Positions 118 through 28,731 of a stretch of DNA of 33,553 nucleotides are shown one piece after another. Position 1 is the stretch's first letter, and the number at the start of each line of letters is the position of its first letter. Made by a program: the position numbers and the translations under genes. The notes under the pieces are model-generated. The model ran no database searches. It was not told the DNA's origin and saw only the letters and a list, made by a program, of their open reading frames with translations. The DNA comes from Candidatus Methanoperedens sp. BLZ2 (lineage in GTDB: Archaea > Halobacteriota > Methanosarcinia > Methanosarcinales > Methanoperedenaceae). Location: the NCBI RefSeq assembly GCF_002487355.1, contig NZ_NTMG01000033.1:1-33553 (forward strand). The letters run 5' to 3'.

Positions 118-1236
118 TTGGTGAGTATTTGTCTACACATTTTCGATCAATATATGAAAAATTCTGATAAAAACAATCTTGAAGAATTGCTGCTGGAACA
201 AGAAGAGAAATCCAGTTTATCTGAAAAATATCTCAGAACGATAATCGAATCATCTTTGTATGGAATAACTGTTGTGGATGAAAATGGCAAATTTGAGTTC
301 GGAAACGATTCTTTTTTTAGAACAATCGGCTGGCGCAAGGAAGAAATTATCGGCCAATATTTCATGAAAATAATCCCTGATGACGCAAAAGAATTTGTAA
401 TGGGGCATTGGCAAGGTGTTCAAACCGACAGGGGAGGATTTCATGAGATCAAAATCAAAACGAGATATGGTGAAATAAAATATCTGAATGTATCAAGCTC
501 TTTCGTAGAGATCAAAGGGAAGAACAAAGTTGTTGCCATTGTTCATGATATCTCCGAAAATAAAAAACAGGAGATAAAGCTGAAAGAATCCGAGGAAAAA
601 TATCGTGATCTCTTTGAAAACGCCCAGGATGCCATGTACGTGGTCGATGATGAAGGTAATTTTTTGAAAATGAACAGGATTGGACTTCAAACACTCGGAT
701 GTGTTAAAGAAGAAGTAATTGGTACCAATATTTCTAAATGGATCACACAAGAAAGTATAATAACCGTTAATGAGCGCCGGAAAAAATGTCTTTCCGGAGA
801 AAAGGTGGATCAGACAGATATCCTTGAGATCGTGCGCAAGAATGGAGAGCACAGGTGGGTTGAGATAAAAATCAGGGAAATCAAAGAAGGTAAGAAAACA
901 ATTGAAATTCACGGTATAGCCAGGGATATTACTGAAAATAGACTATTAAAACAAGAACTTAAGAAATCCAATAAACAACAGAAGCTTCTTTGCTATCTGA
1001 TTCAGGGTACGCGTGGAGGAAAGACCAGAGCATTGATCCTGAAACATCTTAATGAAAGATCTTATAATGCGCATCAATTATCAACAGTTATGAATATGGA
1101 TTATAAAACTATCAGGCACCATCTTGGTGTTTTAATTAAGAATGGAATAATAGGAAAAGGTAATGATGGATACTCTGATCTATATTTCATTTCAAAAAAT
1201 ATGGAAGAAGATTTAAACAAGTTTAATGAGATTTGA
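118..1236 (+). CDS. PAS-PAS sensor protein with C-terminal winged helix
   Basis: Probable one-component sensory regulator of 372 aa. Two PAS domains can be read at about residues 38-150 and 160-275, each ending in the typical HDI/RDI-S/T-E-N/K element, and each preceded by a short helical linker rich in Glu/Lys. The C-terminal part (about 290-362) is a winged-helix DNA-binding domain of the ArsR-like type common in methanogens (RTHR-like helix with the pattern TIRHHLGVLIKNGII). There is no histidine kinase, GGDEF or receiver domain, so PAS sensing probably acts directly on DNA binding. The ligand or cofactor cannot be read from sequence. The listed start is TTG, followed directly by GTG at 121. 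An ATG at 154 (residue 13) is an equally possible start, and no clear Shine-Dalgarno distinguishes them. It is monocistronic, with the next gene convergent. Confidence 0.8.
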   Translation: MVSICLHIFDQYMKNSDKNNLEELLLEQEEKSSLSEKYLRTIIESSLYGITVVDENGKFEFGNDSFFRTIGWRKEEIIGQYFMKIIPDDAKEFVMGHWQGVQTDRGGFHEIKIKTRYGEIKYLNVSSSFVEIKGKNKVVAIVHDISENKKQEIKLKESEEKYRDLFENAQDAMYVVDDEGNFLKMNRIGLQTLGCVKEEVIGTNISKWITQESIITVNERRKKCLSGEKVDQTDILEIVRKNGEHRWVEIKIREIKEGKKTIEIHGIARDITENRLLKQELKKSNKQQKLLCYLIQGTRGGKTRALILKHLNERSYNAHQLSTVMNMDYKTIRHHLGVLIKNGIIGKGNDGYSDLYFISKNMEEDLNKFNEI

Positions 1237-1394: not shown

Positions 1395-2729
1395 TTATTT
1401 CCAGTATGGTTTTCTCAATTCAACATATGCATTGTGAGCCACAGTTGCTCCATTCGCCACTGCCACTACAACGAGCGCAAGATCAGAAGCGATATCTCCG
1501 ACAGCATAAATCCCATCGATATTGGTCTTCTGGGTTTTATCAGTTTTAAGATATCCCCTGTCATCCATTTCAAGACCGAGCTTCTTGAAAATCTCAGTGT
1601 TCGGAATCAGGCCCACAGCCAGCACGACCGAATCCACAACCTGCTGGATTAACTCATCTTCCTTCAGGTCTTTCATTATAACTTTTTCGACCTTGTCAGT
1701 ACCGGAAATTTCAACCACTTCGGTATTATAGAGTACCTTGACTTTATCGATCGCTTTAAGACGCTCGATCTTATTCGGTGCTACCTTTAATTCATCACTC
1801 CTGCAGGCAATGGTGATAAGATCCGCTGTATCGGCCAGGCTTAGAGCTGCGTCCGCTGCTGAATTCCCGCCGCCTACTATTACGACGCGCTTCCCCTGGA
1901 AATTCTGGGGATTCCTGACATAATAATATACTCCCTTTTCATCCTTACTGAATTTGTCTTCACCCTTTATACCGCCTGTCGCAGGAGAACTGCCGGTTGC
2001 AAGAACCAGGATCTTCCCCCTGTATTCGCCGCTTTCTGCAATGACCTTCCTGTCTGGCGTAATCTCATTCACACGTTCTTTTTTCATTTCCACTTTCAGT
2101 TTCTTTGCTTCATTCATCCAGCTATTGACAAGGTCGGAACATGTTGATTTTTCACATAGTCCGGGGAAGTTCTCGATCATCTTGTCCGGGCATAACCATG
2201 ACAGGATACCACCCCAGCTGGAAGCTTCAAATATCGCTGTCTTAAGTCCCCGATATGCACACAGAATCCCTGTTGTCAGCCCGCCCGGCCCCCCGCCCAC
2301 GACGATCACATCAAAATCATATTTTTCAGCTTCAAGCTTTGCCTTCTCCTCTTTTTTAGACATGTAATCCTTGATGGCTGCATGAAGCGCATCTGCTGCA
2401 AGGTTAGAGCAGTGCATCTTGATAAGGGGCAAGCCTCCAAGTTCCGCGGCAACCTCACCGCGTGTGATCTTAAGGGCTTCCTCAAGAGTTTTTCCGATAG
2501 CCATTTCCGTAATCATACTGCTTGTTGCGATAGCAGACCCGCAGCCGAAAGTCTTGAATTTCACATCCTTCAGTATATTATTCTCGACTTTGATCTGTAT
2601 CTCCATTAAGTCCCCACACACCGGATTTCCAACTCTTCCTGTGCCATCTGCATCCTTTATCTGCCCCACGTTTCTCGGATTCCTGAAATGATCCATTACC
2701 TTTTCTGAGTATTCGAATTGTTCTTCCAT
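1395..2729 (-). CDS. iscU: IscU scaffold fused to thioredoxin-reductase-like (FNR-type) flavoprotein
   Basis: A 444-aa two-domain protein. Residues 1-123 are an IscU/NifU-N scaffold for Fe-S cluster assembly with the three ligand cysteines C38 (NPVCGD), C63 (FGCGSA) and C107 (MHCSNLA) plus D40. A charged linker (about 124-137) leads to a two-nucleotide-fold flavoprotein (138-444) with an FAD GGGPGG loop at 145-150, an NAD(P)H GGGNSA loop at 286-291 and the C-terminal FAD motif AVGD at 409-412. The position where thioredoxin reductase carries CxxC reads YYYVRNP (268-274). The domain therefore resembles the TrxR-like ferredoxin-NADP reductases rather than a true thioredoxin reductase. It lies 2 nt behind the iscS-like gene, with GAGGAAAT as ribosome binding site inside that gene. 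I infer that it feeds electrons from NAD(P)H to clusters built on the scaffold. The true acceptor is unknown. Confidence 0.88.
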   Translation of the reverse strand: MEEQFEYSEKVMDHFRNPRNVGQIKDADGTGRVGNPVCGDLMEIQIKVENNILKDVKFKTFGCGSAIATSSMITEMAIGKTLEEALKITRGEVAAELGGLPLIKMHCSNLAADALHAAIKDYMSKKEEKAKLEAEKYDFDVIVVGGGPGGLTTGILCAYRGLKTAIFEASSWGGILSWLCPDKMIENFPGLCEKSTCSDLVNSWMNEAKKLKVEMKKERVNEITPDRKVIAESGEYRGKILVLATGSSPATGGIKGEDKFSKDEKGVYYYVRNPQNFQGKRVVIVGGGNSAADAALSLADTADLITIACRSDELKVAPNKIERLKAIDKVKVLYNTEVVEISGTDKVEKVIMKDLKEDELIQQVVDSVVLAVGLIPNTEIFKKLGLEMDDRGYLKTDKTQKTNIDGIYAVGDIASDLALVVVAVANGATVAHNAYVELRKPYWK

Positions 2730-2731
2730 AA

Positions 2732-3895
2732 TTATTTCCTCGTATAAAGCGGTGACAATTCCCTTAATCTTGCAACGATCTTCGGTATTGATTCAATAAC
2801 ATGATCCACATCTTCTTCGGTGTTGCCGCGTCCAAGCGTTAGCAATAATGAGCCGTGAGCTTCCTCATGCCTTAATCCCAATGCGATAAGAACATGCGAT
2901 GGCTCAAGAGTTTTTGAAGAACAGGCCGATCCTGTGCTTGCTGTTATCCCCAGGTCATTAAGCTGTAATATGATGCTTTCACCTTCTATGAAGCTGAACC
3001 TGAAACTTGCATTATTGGGAAGCCTTTTTATCCTGTGGCCTGTAAGATAGGTATATTCCATTTTAAGGATATTATCGATAAGCTTATCCCGCATTTTCAT
3101 ATTTCTTGCGCTTTGTTCTGACATTTCTTTTTGTGCGATCCCGGCGGCTTTACCCATCCCGACAATACCCGGAATATTTTCCGAACCGCTTCTCATCCCG
3201 AATTCCTGCCCTCCACCGAGCATGAAAGGAATAATTCTTACGCCCTGTTTGATATAAAGCGCACCTGTGCCTTTCGGACCGCCAAGGTCATTTGAAGAAA
3301 GAGTCAAAAAATCGATATGTTCATTTTCAACATCCACCGGAATTTTTCCAATAGCAGAAGTCCCGTCAACATGGAACATTACCTTCGCATCAGTTGCTAT
3401 CTGGCCAATTTCCCTTATCGGCTGGATTGTTCCAATTTCACCGTTGGCATACATTATTGAAATCAGGATCGTTTTATCTGTTATGGCATTCTTTACCTGT
3501 TCGGGATTCAGGAGTCCGTCCTTATCAACAGGAAGATATGTGACATCAAATCCGTTCCTTTGCAGGTCTTTTAAGGTATTCATCACTGACATATGCTCTA
3601 TCGAAGTCGTGATTATATGATTTCCTTTATCCTTATAGCGTAAAGCTGCGCCGCGCAGTGCAAGATTGTTGGATTCTGTTGCGCCGGAAGTGAATATAAT
3701 GCTCTTTGGGTTCGGTGCTCCGATCAATTTCGCCACGCTGATCCGTGCGTTTTCCAGTTCCCTCCTGGCTTTTCGTCCCTGTGAGTGAAGGGATGATGGA
3801 TTCCCGATCTCTTTTTCAAAAAACGGTATCATGGCTTCCATCACGCGTTCATCTACGGGTGACGCCGATCCGTAATCCATGTAAACTTGTTTCAT
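2732..3895 (-). CDS. iscS: Cysteine desulfurase homologue (IscS/NifS) lacking the PLP lysine
   Basis: A 387-aa class V aminotransferase-fold protein, full length for IscS/NifS. Conserved parts are the N-terminal YMDYGSASP, the ring-stacking His H101 (SIEHMSV), the PLP-binding Asp D177 (FHVDGTSA) and the sulfur-carrying loop Cys C325 (GSACSSKTLEPS). The Schiff-base motif, normally S-x-H-K followed by GPKG, reads SSNDLGGPKG (200-209), so His-Lys is replaced by N202-D203. I rechecked this on the nucleotide sequence (codons AAT GAC near 3285-3290). The same Lys-to-Asp change is described for Archaeoglobus fulgidus IscS, reported to have no desulfurase activity but to offer a cysteine ligand during cluster assembly on IscU. 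Its position next to an IscU fusion fits such a structural role. The start at 3895 has only a weak upstream GTGA. Confidence 0.9.
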   Translation of the reverse strand: MKQVYMDYGSASPVDERVMEAMIPFFEKEIGNPSSLHSQGRKARRELENARISVAKLIGAPNPKSIIFTSGATESNNLALRGAALRYKDKGNHIITTSIEHMSVMNTLKDLQRNGFDVTYLPVDKDGLLNPEQVKNAITDKTILISIMYANGEIGTIQPIREIGQIATDAKVMFHVDGTSAIGKIPVDVENEHIDFLTLSSNDLGGPKGTGALYIKQGVRIIPFMLGGGQEFGMRSGSENIPGIVGMGKAAGIAQKEMSEQSARNMKMRDKLIDNILKMEYTYLTGHRIKRLPNNASFRFSFIEGESIILQLNDLGITASTGSACSSKTLEPSHVLIALGLRHEEAHGSLLLTLGRGNTEEDVDHVIESIPKIVARLRELSPLYTRK

Positions 3896-3939: not shown

Positions 3940-4101
3940 CTAGATACGCCTGTCTCTGCCTTCAGGCCCTTCGCACTCCGGTATATAGCATGTCGCATCT
4001 ATGAAAGAGCATGTTTCTTTGCAGCCTGGGTAGCTTTCCGGCGGAGTGGCTTTGCCTTCGAACTGGTATCCGCATAATGAACATTTCCATTGTATTTTCA
4101 T
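3940..4101 (-). CDS. Six-cysteine mini-protein, rubredoxin/zinc-ribbon-like
   Basis: A 53-aa ORF read by hand. It starts MKIQWKCSLCGYQFEG and has cysteines at 7, 10, 27, 31, 38 and 43. The N-terminal CxxCGYxFEG is the half-site seen in rubredoxins and zinc ribbons. The second half (C27xxxC31 then C38xxxxC43) does not match a classical rubredoxin CPxCG, so the metal could be Zn, Fe or an Fe-S cluster. A good Shine-Dalgarno (AGGAGAT) lies 4-5 nt before the ATG. It sits between the dsrE-like gene (9-nt gap) and the iscS-like gene (44-nt gap), in the same direction, so it is likely part of the Fe-S/sulfur operon. A small electron carrier or metal chaperone is a reasonable guess, but not shown. 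Confidence 0.75.
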   Translation of the reverse strand: MKIQWKCSLCGYQFEGKATPPESYPGCKETCSFIDATCYIPECEGPEGRDRRI

Positions 4102-4110
4102 AATTATCTC

Positions 4111-4470
4111 CTAAAACCACATAGTTCCGTCAGCTTCAAGCACAAGATCATTAAGAGTAGCAGCTCCAACTATCTCAGCTGTTGGAATGAAATCACCTGT
4201 TGTCAGGTTTATCAGCTGGCAGCTTTGCTCACAAACCATGAGTTTAACACCTGCTTTTATGCTCTGGTCCATTACTTCTTGAAGTGTGGGAAAAGCTCCC
4301 ATCTTTATTTTTTCAGCATTTCCCTTTTTTACTACCGTAACTCCCATCCCGAGGAAATAGATTATAGGATCAATTCCCATCGCCTTTGCAGTCTGTGCAA
4401 GGATGAATGGGGAATAAAGGCGTTCTGGCGTATCGATTCCGCTTGTCTGGACATATAAAAGGTTTGTCAT
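4111..4470 (-). CDS. DsrE-family sulfur-relay-like protein
   Basis: A 119-aa single-domain protein with the DsrE/DsrF-like fold pattern: an N-terminal beta strand (NLLYVQTSG), an alternating alpha/beta core with IIYFLGMGV, and a C-terminal strand. Two cysteines, C80 and C84 (VCEQSC), sit where DsrE-like proteins carry their sulfur-binding Cys. Family members pass persulfide sulfur between partners in tRNA thiolation or sulfur metabolism. It is the first gene of a four-gene minus-strand operon with a six-Cys protein, an IscS homologue and an IscU-reductase fusion, so a role in delivering sulfur to Fe-S assembly is plausible. The ATG at 4470 is supported by GGGAG 6-7 nt upstream. The exact partner is unknown. 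Confidence 0.75.
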   Translation of the reverse strand: MTNLLYVQTSGIDTPERLYSPFILAQTAKAMGIDPIIYFLGMGVTVVKKGNAEKIKMGAFPTLQEVMDQSIKAGVKLMVCEQSCQLINLTTGDFIPTAEIVGAATLNDLVLEADGTMWF

Positions 4471-22681: not shown

Positions 22682-23836
22682 TTATTCGGGCCTATGAATT
22701 ATTACCTTAAATCGCTCAGCTTTAGTATCGTTAATAAATTCAATAGCAGGATCATCTCTCAGGGCTCTGACTATGCCAGTGCCAAGGCCACGGTAGGGCA
22801 GCATTTTTGAAGCAAATGATGCTAATATCCGGTTTCGCATGCATGATATCCCATGTTTTATATTTTCGATTGTCATATTGTTGGGCAATTTTCCAGGACT
22901 ATCAATCTCTATACGATTATCGAATATCAATATGCGAATAGTGGCATTAATAAAATAATCCCTGTGAATCAGGGCATTAACCAGGATCTCCTGCAAGGCG
23001 ATTTCTGAAACCTCAAGGACCCCAGGTACATTGAAATCCTTTCCTTTTTGGATTTTCCTTAGATTCCGCAGCAGAAATGCCATTGCGTTCCTGTATTGTT
23101 TTGGAAGATTGCTATCAATGTCCTCACTGTCCCGGTATTGAGTGCCACCTAAATCATTTCCGAAAAAAGAGACCGCTTTTATCAAGAATTCTGGCCTATA
23201 TTTTTGGGGGTTTTTTCCAAAAAGCATCAATCCCGCCTGATTGAGTATAGAATTCTTTGCAAGGTTCAGGTTTTCGAGTATTTTATCAAGCGGTATTCCT
23301 GTCGCTTCTATGCTTTCCCCATATTGTTTCTCATAGAAAGAATATAAAAGCTCTTTATCAATATCTTTTATAGATGAGCCATATACAATGGTTTCATCTG
23401 CATATATTTTCCCTGATTCCTGAAAAAGCCGTAGCAGTTCTTCCTGTGAAATTTTCCGTTTGTCAGCTCCCACCTTGGCAAAATAGATACCTTCGCTTGT
23501 ACAGTACGGTTTGTTTACTCCTTCTTTTATCTCTATGACAAGTAGTTTTCTTTCTCCTATTTTAATTATTTCGCTGAATGGTGTAATGGGAGGTTTCACA
23601 TTCTCATTTGCACTATTTGAGATCAACTGGTTCAGTCTGCGAATTTCACTGCTTTCAAGACCTGCAATATTTCCATAATCATCAACTCCGACTATGATAA
23701 AACTGCCTCTCGTATTTGAAAAAGCGACCATCTCCTGTGCAAGCTGGACTGCGTTTGTAATATCTTTTTTAAACTGCGTCCTGCTGTCCTCACCTTTTTC
23801 AATAATTTCCAGTAATTCCGCCGGTTGCATAATCAT
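22682..23836 (-). CDS. AlbA_2 (Schlafen-like) DNA-binding protein with ATPase-like C-terminal domain
   Basis: A 384-aa protein. The N-terminal part (about 14-125) is an AlbA_2/Schlafen-type domain: E-D-x-x-x-QFKK, AFSNTRGSFIIVGVDDYGNI, and IEIKEG...PYC with YFAKVGADKRKIS. The C-terminal part (about 285-375) has an EILVNALIHRDY N-box-like stretch and IEIDSPGKLPNN, as in HATPase_c_4 domains of RecG-like transcriptional regulators. Such proteins are scattered through archaea and bacteria, usually annotated as regulators or putative DNA-binding proteins, without proven function. It shows no fused winged helix at the C-terminus. The neighbouring 59-aa gene lies upstream, about 90 nt away. Confidence 0.85.
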   Translation of the reverse strand: MIMQPAELLEIIEKGEDSRTQFKKDITNAVQLAQEMVAFSNTRGSFIIVGVDDYGNIAGLESSEIRRLNQLISNSANENVKPPITPFSEIIKIGERKLLVIEIKEGVNKPYCTSEGIYFAKVGADKRKISQEELLRLFQESGKIYADETIVYGSSIKDIDKELLYSFYEKQYGESIEATGIPLDKILENLNLAKNSILNQAGLMLFGKNPQKYRPEFLIKAVSFFGNDLGGTQYRDSEDIDSNLPKQYRNAMAFLLRNLRKIQKGKDFNVPGVLEVSEIALQEILVNALIHRDYFINATIRILIFDNRIEIDSPGKLPNNMTIENIKHGISCMRNRILASFASKMLPYRGLGTGIVRALRDDPAIEFINDTKAERFKVIIHRPE

Positions 23837-27522: not shown

Positions 27523-28731
27523 ATGAAGAAATGGAATCAGCAGTACCATGACAAATTCAAGGCATTTGCCCTGATACATAAAGTATGGGATCAAAAGAAC
27601 CTTGAAAAGGCATGGAAAAGCGTAAAAGCAAATAGAGGAAGTGCTGGAAACGATAGAATAACCATTGAGCAATTCGAACAAAATTTACCGCAAAACTTAG
27701 CCGAAATAAAGAGACTGCTCAAAGAGAAACGCTATGAGCCAAGCCCGGTCTTAAGAGTATTGATCCCGAAAGACAACGGGAAGATGAGGAAACTTGGGAT
27801 TCCTACAGTGAGAGACAGAGTAGTCCAGCAGGCATTAAAGAACGTACTTGAACCCATCTTTGAAGAAATATTCCTGCCCCAGAGCCACGGTTACAGACCC
27901 AACACTAATGCCCATGCGGCAGTCAGGAAGGGTGAAGCATACCTTGAAAGAGGCTACCACTGGGTAGTGGATGCTGATATTGAGGGATTCTTCGACCATG
28001 TTGACCATCAGATATTGATGGATCTTGTATGCGAAAAGATCGCAGACGGCAGAGTTCTTTCTCTTATAGAATCGTTCCTGAAAAGTGGAATAATGAACGA
28101 AGGCATATTCGAGGAGAGCAATGAAGGCACTCCTCAGGGCGGAAACCTCAGTCCGCTGCTATCGAATATTTATTTAAACCATTTCGATAGGAGAATGGGC
28201 GATTGTGGCTATCTGCTCCTGAGATATGCAGATGACATTGTTATTTTCTGCAAGTTCGAATCAGATGCACAGGATGCCCTGAAACGAGCAAAGGAGATTC
28301 TGGAGGACGAGTTAAAGTTGAAACTCAGCCCTGAGAAAACAAAGATCATCAATGCAAGAAAGAAAGGGGTTGAGTTCCTTGGTTTTCACTTCAATGGAAG
28401 ATGGAAAAGACCGAGGGACAAAGCAAGGAAGAGGTTCAGGGAAGAGATAAAGCGTCGAACAAGACGGCAGCAACCTAAGAACCTTGAAATGGCGATAGAA
28501 TCCATCAATCCGGTTATCCGGGGTTGGGGGAACTATTTCAAGGGCGGCACTGTGAAGAAATCGTTCGAGGAGCTTGATGGATGTATCAGGGGACGCTTAA
28601 GGAGCTTTGTAGCTAAGAGGCGTACTCTGAAGATACTTGTTTTCGGGATACATCCTGCCGAGTTTGCCAAGATGGGGCTGGTTTCACTTTCTTCGATGCT
28701 GGATGATACCATCTCTTGTAAAGGGATATGA
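27523..28731 (+). CDS. ltrA: Group II intron reverse transcriptase/maturase
   Basis: A 402-aa RT/maturase. RT blocks can be followed in order: RKLGIPTVRDRVVQQA (89-104), DADIEGFFDHVDH (150-162), GTPQGGNLSPLLSNIYLN (202-219), the catalytic YADD at 235-238 (RYADDIVIF) and LSPEKTKI. The maturase (X) domain covers about 300-390 (IRGWGNYFKGG, RLRSFVAKRR). There is no HNH endonuclease domain, so target-site cleavage is not done by this protein; retrohoming into single-stranded or hairpin targets is typical for such ORFs. The frame is intact, so the element may be active. It lies in the intron's domain IV. Confidence 0.93.
   Translation: MKKWNQQYHDKFKAFALIHKVWDQKNLEKAWKSVKANRGSAGNDRITIEQFEQNLPQNLAEIKRLLKEKRYEPSPVLRVLIPKDNGKMRKLGIPTVRDRVVQQALKNVLEPIFEEIFLPQSHGYRPNTNAHAAVRKGEAYLERGYHWVVDADIEGFFDHVDHQILMDLVCEKIADGRVLSLIESFLKSGIMNEGIFEESNEGTPQGGNLSPLLSNIYLNHFDRRMGDCGYLLLRYADDIVIFCKFESDAQDALKRAKEILEDELKLKLSPEKTKIINARKKGVEFLGFHFNGRWKRPRDKARKRFREEIKRRTRRQQPKNLEMAIESINPVIRGWGNYFKGGTVKKSFEELDGCIRGRLRSFVAKRRTLKILVFGIHPAEFAKMGLVSLSSMLDDTISCKGI

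Follow-up and report, generated by a model that had tools for sequence, protein, structure and literature searches.

The described protein closest to the one considered here is the IscS of Archaeoglobus fulgidus, which is reported to be without desulfurase activity owing to an Asp residue and to provide the IscU cluster with one of its ligands, a Cys (PMC7585200, a secondary source here, citing Pagnier 2014 and Marinoni 2012). In Methanosarcina acetivorans, loss of the lysine has been noted for IscS1, the neighbors of which were called genes of unknown function (PMC7585200). The Asp change, the inactivity and the ligand idea were thus already known for A. fulgidus, as was the lysine loss for M. 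acetivorans IscS1. The ISC and MIS (MisS-MisU) systems likewise consist of an IscS-like and an IscU-like gene pair, but their cysteine desulfurase is an active one (PMC12442378, PMC7585200); the name MIS for archaeal IscS-IscU pairs comes from Garcia et al. (as quoted in PMC12442378). Persulfide carriers of the TusA and DsrE families are known from the TusA-TusBCD-TusE relay of Escherichia coli and the DsrEFH-DsrC relay of Allochromatium, in which the sulfur originates from IscS or from a sulfur-oxidation route. In E. coli, TusA binds to IscS (PMC11302665), and in Allochromatium, sulfide alone is enough to persulfurate DsrE (PMC3397948).

The locus described here lies in a stretch of 33,553 nucleotides from Candidatus Methanoperedens sp. 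BLZ2 (contig NZ_NTMG01000033.1), referred to below as the window. Its gene order is dsrE, a rubredoxin-like gene, iscS, and iscU fused to a flavoprotein gene (Table 1), and there is no TusA in the cluster. The first two genes are separated by 9 bp, and the fused iscU starts 2 bp after the end of iscS. The plus-strand translation of 2732-3895 is full of stops, and the iscS reading frame is on the minus strand. Elsewhere in the window, a reverse transcriptase ORF of 402 aa, group II intron-like as read by eye, is found at 27523-28731 (plus strand), and a Schlafen/AlbA_2 protein whose C-terminal ATPase domain is of the RecG type at 22682-23836 (minus strand).

Table 1. Features of the lysine-less iscS cluster, in window coordinates.
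Feature	Position	Strand	Basis
DsrE-like sulfur-carrier protein (predicted), 119 aa, first gene of the cluster; Cys80 codon at 4231-4233	4111..4470	-	Pfam DsrE (PF02635), 64.6 bits
Rubredoxin-like protein, 53 aa, 44 bp ahead of iscS	3940..4101	-	Pfam RUBY_RBDX, E 9.5e-5, under its cut-off
iscS homologue, lysine-less N-D clade, 387 aa	2732..3895	-	ORF; Pfam Aminotran_5, 252 bits; 56% identity to A. fulgidus IscS2
N202 (3290-3292) and D203 (3287-3289) codons, in place of the PLP Schiff-base His-Lys	3287..3292	-	Translation; clade comparison
Cys325 codon, mobile-loop persulfide cysteine	2921..2923	-	Present in every sequence checked
IscU (NifU_N, residues 6-127) fused to a thioredoxin-reductase/FNR-like flavoprotein (residues 139-427), 444 aa	1395..2729	-	Pfam NifU_N, 168 bits; Pyr_redox_2, 144 bits
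Cys180 codon of the flavoprotein domain, in an insertion adjoining the FAD region	2190..2192	-	Conserved 40/40; alignment to 7jyp, 2q7v, 4zn0

The window IscS is a full-length member of the aminotransferase class V family (PF00266 spans residues 4-365 at 252 bits), and it scores under the NCBIfam equivalog cut-offs for IscS and NifS. Active type I cysteine desulfurases (IscS, NifS, MisS) carry a Schiff-base Lys preceded by His, a Gln at the PLP ring and an Arg at the substrate carboxylate. In the window protein, the corresponding motif is SSNDLGGPKG, with N202-D203 where His-Lys is usual (the D203 codon reads gtc on the plus strand and GAC on the minus strand), and the other two residues are Ser180 and Leu351. 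H101, D177 and C325, the last being the mobile-loop Cys of the SxGSAC motif, are retained. The translation thus agrees with the initial annotation of the gene, which had described an IscS homologue with Asp in place of the PLP lysine and these three residues kept, and places it on the minus strand. The best PDB match is A. fulgidus IscS2 (4eb5), which is 56% identical and also reads N-D; the structures 4eb5, 4eb7 and 4hvk belong to this protein, and its Lys variant, 4r5f, has Lys at the place equivalent to D203. The alignment with A. fulgidus IscS and its structures that had been proposed therefore bears out the claim of a common change, and the accompanying claim of absent activity is in line with the report cited by PMC7585200. 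The two proteins have the N-D motif, the loop Cys, an adjoining IscU and common descent in common.

A sequencing error at 3285-3290, named initially as a refuting possibility, is excluded, because at least three bases would have to change to turn HK into ND, the Methanoperedens orthologues also read N-D, and so do 115/115 members of the clade described below. Many relatives at 73-96% identity carry the name Methanoperedens, and dN/dS against relatives is 0.06-0.15, indicating purifying selection; with the conservation in 115/115 sequences, this rules out a pseudogene as well and upholds the idea of a protein kept under selection without its catalytic lysine. The other refuting possibility, a substitute Schiff-base lysine, found no candidate: no newly gained active-site lysine occurs in the N-D clade, in which only K109 is Lys in more than 90% of the sequences, and this residue is common in lysine-type enzymes too.

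In a non-redundant set, N202 and D203 are present in 115/115 N-D clade sequences from several archaeal phyla, and His-Lys in 58/58 lysine-type sequences. The difference extends beyond one residue. Position 180 is Ala in 111/115 N-D sequences (Ser in the window IscS) and Gln in 58/58 lysine-type sequences; position 351 is mostly Leu or Val in the N-D class (Leu in 74/115) and Arg in 58/58 lysine-type sequences. Hence, the whole PLP/cysteine site of the N-D IscS is altered (H202N, K203D, Q180A/S and R351L/V). The only columns that separate the two classes at 85% or more on each side are 76, 103, 176, 180, 202 and 203, which sit beside known PLP-holding residues. T73, H101, D177 and Thr/Ser at 238 are retained in the N-D class, and C325 is invariant. 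From this comparison and the low dN/dS, it appears that the chemistry of the PLP/cysteine site has been lost and that the persulfide Cys and the partnership with IscU remain under selection.

A scan of named genomes, with search patterns that did not contain the N-D motif itself, returned N-D in 78 of the best 80 IscS relatives, the other two being N-G and N-N; these 80 come from Methanoperedens, ANME-2, Archaeoglobi, Bathyarchaeota, Hadarchaeota and others. The N-D sequences form a single clade (support 100/99). Rare members have N-E, N-G or N-N in place of N-D (L230, L101 and L107), so the Asp as such may be dispensable. A metagenome-assembled genome labelled Actinomycetota (L090) contains an N-D IscS and IscU with neither TusA nor DsrE, which could reflect lateral transfer or a mis-binned contig. 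Methanosarcina IscS1 is of a His-Thr type. It was considered as proof of a second independent lysine loss and then dropped, since the AU test did not support this (p 0.31 for one clade with the N-D sequences).

The neighboring genes are the telling part, and they were passed over in the initial annotation, as were the changes at Q180 and R351. TusA and/or DsrE genes are located upstream on the same strand in 113/119 lysine-less IscS loci and in 0/57 lysine-type IscS loci, the latter drawn mostly from one archaeal phylum. The count used HMMs built here for DsrE and TusA, a distance of 1.5 kb upstream, and lysine-less loci with at least 700 bp of upstream sequence available; in six lysine-less loci, neither gene was found within that distance. 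The Fisher p of 8e-40 is calculated on related sequences and hence is not a tally of independent events: since all N-D sequences belong to a single clade, few such events underlie the association, and a phylogenetic sign test had just one or two independent pairs, too few to be informative. The order tusA-dsrE-iscS is found in 55/55 loci that have both carriers, with a median DsrE-to-IscS gap of 27 bp, and IscU adjoins IscS in 113/119 lysine-less loci, giving a typical cluster of tusA-dsrE-iscS-iscU. The rubredoxin-like gene occurs in most, though not all, Methanoperedens loci. Archaeoglobi that have no DsrE gene retain TusA. In the A. fulgidus genome (assigned by sequence), both IscS loci have a DsrE-like gene directly upstream, and one has TusA before that. 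The identities of TusA and DsrE are backed by Pfam. As in the Tus and DsrEFH carriers, the persulfide Cys is kept: the active-site Cys is conserved in 63/65 N-D-linked DsrE proteins and 4/4 Methanosarcina DsrE proteins, the linked TusA proteins mostly retain CxGxxCPxP, and the window DsrE, with Cys80, is a predicted carrier. M. acetivorans IscS1-IscU1 (MA0808/MA0807) resembles the N-D loci in that a lysine-less IscS stands in a tusA-dsrE2-iscS1-iscU1 cluster. It differs in having Lys replaced by Thr with His kept, H101 replaced by Asp, Gln replaced by His, Arg kept, and a carrier of the DsrE2 type. In one Archaeoglobi genome (L200:4837-9983), genes for SepCysS-like, DUF169-like and ThiI-like proteins (labels read by eye), TusA, IscS(ND) and IscU follow one another on one strand, possibly as a shared sulfur-trafficking operon. 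No paper joining DsrE, IscS, IscU and archaea was found in the open-access literature; closed papers could contain the tusA-dsrE linkage.

The IscU domain of the window has the invariant scaffold ligands of NifU_N (C38, D40, C63 and C107). The domain behind it finds its best sequence and fold matches among low-Mr thioredoxin reductases and FNR-type ferredoxin-NADP reductases (7jyp, 3f8p, 3lzw), from which it differs in its fusion to IscU, in a new invariant Cys180, and in the absence of the thioredoxin reductase CxxC, in place of which it reads YYYVRNP. An AlphaFold model of the fusion is of moderate confidence (pLDDT 77, pTM 0.54), too weak to put Cys180 at the flavin. The fusion was seen only in Methanoperedenaceae and ANME-2, where it is present in nearly all Methanoperedens and ANME-2 loci having the region intact; among 197 genomes of the phylum, it was detected at E<=1e-90 only in the genome of the window and in one ANME-2-family genome. 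By contrast, no flavoprotein is attached to the IscU of A. fulgidus. M. acetivorans IscU1 (L193:5251-5961) is also a fusion, but to FeS_assembly_P (PF01883, MIP18/SufT-like), which accounts for its size of 24 kDa. In a Sifarchaeum genome, an intein that contains a LAGLIDADG domain splits the IscU (L109:4650-6248). A search of the open-access literature found no paper on an IscU-flavoprotein fusion; closed papers could contain one.

The search for a second iscS with the lysine, suggested initially, was successful: the genome encodes one at C73:26776-27921 (motif SAHKIYGPKG, with Arg retained) that has an ordinary IscU behind it, and also encodes a SufS-type enzyme. Neither had been noticed in the initial annotation, and together they weaken its proposal that the organism takes sulfur from sulfide rather than from cysteine. 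PAS-HTH regulators flank both isc loci of this genome (window 118-1236, plus strand; L002:3050-4081, minus strand), and their 75% identity over 238 aa suggests shared control or a local duplication of the lysine-less locus and the C73 lysine-type locus. Two strong IscS matches were found in 25/31 genomes of the genus Methanoperedens. On the other hand, 14/17 Archaeoglobaceae genomes contain lysine-less IscS only, with no other match at E<=1e-10, so that their sulfur must have another origin; A. fulgidus itself yielded no further desulfurase of type I or II, whereas the genome of the window has both. Thus, the proposal concerning sulfide fits Archaeoglobaceae better than Methanoperedens, and the lysine-less system can stand alone in a genome or accompany a normal one. 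In methanogens without cysteine desulfurase, tRNA thiolation is regarded as probably drawing on sulfide as its donor (PMC5372739).

The loss of the catalytic machinery, together with sulfur-carrier genes adjoining across many archaea, suggests that the lysine-less IscS has been re-tooled to pass on sulfur made elsewhere, not to extract it from cysteine. The model that we favor, and that we regard as somewhat better than an even prospect, is that the inactive IscS serves as a persulfide-accepting, IscU-docking platform fed by a TusA/DsrE relay, within a cysteine-independent IscS-IscU machine to which the flavoprotein gives electrons. In this model, DsrE, with TusA where present, would carry sulfane sulfur in the form of a protein persulfide, with sulfide, polysulfide or some other donor as its origin. 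The carrier would hand this sulfur to Cys325 in the IscS loop, and Cys325 would give it on to the IscU docked on the same IscS dimer. The carriers would therefore feed an inactive IscS and IscU, in a direction that is the reverse of E. coli IscS to TusA. Persulfide-reducing electrons in bacterial ISC come from ferredoxin and its reductase. By analogy, the flavoprotein fused to IscU in Methanoperedens and ANME-2 may donate the electrons with which persulfide sulfur is reduced to sulfide, and the rubredoxin-like protein may join it in this supply in Methanoperedens. What has been observed is the residue loss, the gene order and the domain fusion; persulfide transfer, its direction and the electron flow are read from these, and a Tus relay running in reverse is read from gene order and residue loss. 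Gene neighborhood by itself gives no direction of sulfur flow. The Methanoperedens cluster is without TusA and its genome has normal desulfurases elsewhere, both of which count against such a relay in this organism. In its broadest form, the proposal of a widespread archaeal cysteine-independent ISC that is fed from inorganic sulfur via TusA/DsrE persulfide, with an IscU carrying its own reductase in Methanoperedens and ANME-2, seems to us evenly poised.

The strongest competing explanation is the published A. fulgidus model, in which IscS is structural, its loop Cys is a ligand to the IscU cluster, free sulfide is the sulfur source, and no persulfide passes through IscS. The N-D motif, the loop Cys and the 56% identity that the window protein has in common with A. 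fulgidus IscS speak for it, as does the reported ligation of a [2Fe-2S] cluster by this Cys in an IscS-IscU complex without desulfurase activity (PMC7585200 and PMC9769115, both relaying structural papers); however, the cluster in the crystal was observed in a complex with IscU D35A, according to the account in PMC9769115. The structural or ligand-donor role put forward in the initial annotation holds up in so far as the ligand idea is published for A. fulgidus, but a purely structural role leaves the linkage to TusA and DsrE (113/119 versus 0/57 loci) unexplained. One Cys could serve both purposes, so this model is compatible with a relay; as a full account, we consider it unlikely, though worth keeping in view. 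It is also conceivable that the hub works in the opposite direction, with TusA and DsrE drawing on IscS/IscU, or on some other source, to supply sulfur to tRNA thiolation and related pathways. E. coli IscS does donate sulfur to TusA and ThiI (PMC11302665), and the single-strand Archaeoglobi locus in L200 places a ThiI-like gene beside TusA and IscS(ND); ThiI-like neighbors were noticed by eye in that one locus, and a lysine-less IscS cannot be the sulfur source for such a hub, because no persulfide is made from cysteine without the lysine. This arrangement therefore seems to us quite improbable. Finally, the pocket may still hold PLP, since T73, H101, D177 and Thr/Ser238 are retained and A. 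fulgidus IscS is drawn with PLP in a published figure of 4EB5 (PMC9769115, for the figure). But that the protein is a PLP enzyme catalyzing some other reaction, or pairs as a regulatory subunit with the lysine-type IscS in a mixed dimer, is very hard to credit when the reaction Lys, His, Gln and Arg are all replaced and 14/17 Archaeoglobaceae genomes have no lysine-type partner, which rules out such a partnership as a general role for most of that family.

Lysine-less IscS was reportedly known earlier from single proteins and taken as a structural oddity. How sulfur enters Fe-S clusters in archaea that have no active cysteine desulfurase has yet to be worked out (PMC5372739), and the linkage to carriers across several archaeal phyla offers a concrete, testable route from inorganic sulfur via TusA/DsrE and IscS to IscU. 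If the relay through the inactive IscS is correct, the annotation of lysine-less IscS genes as cysteine desulfurases would be wrong, and the sulfur economy of anaerobic methane-oxidizing archaea and Archaeoglobi would have been misread.
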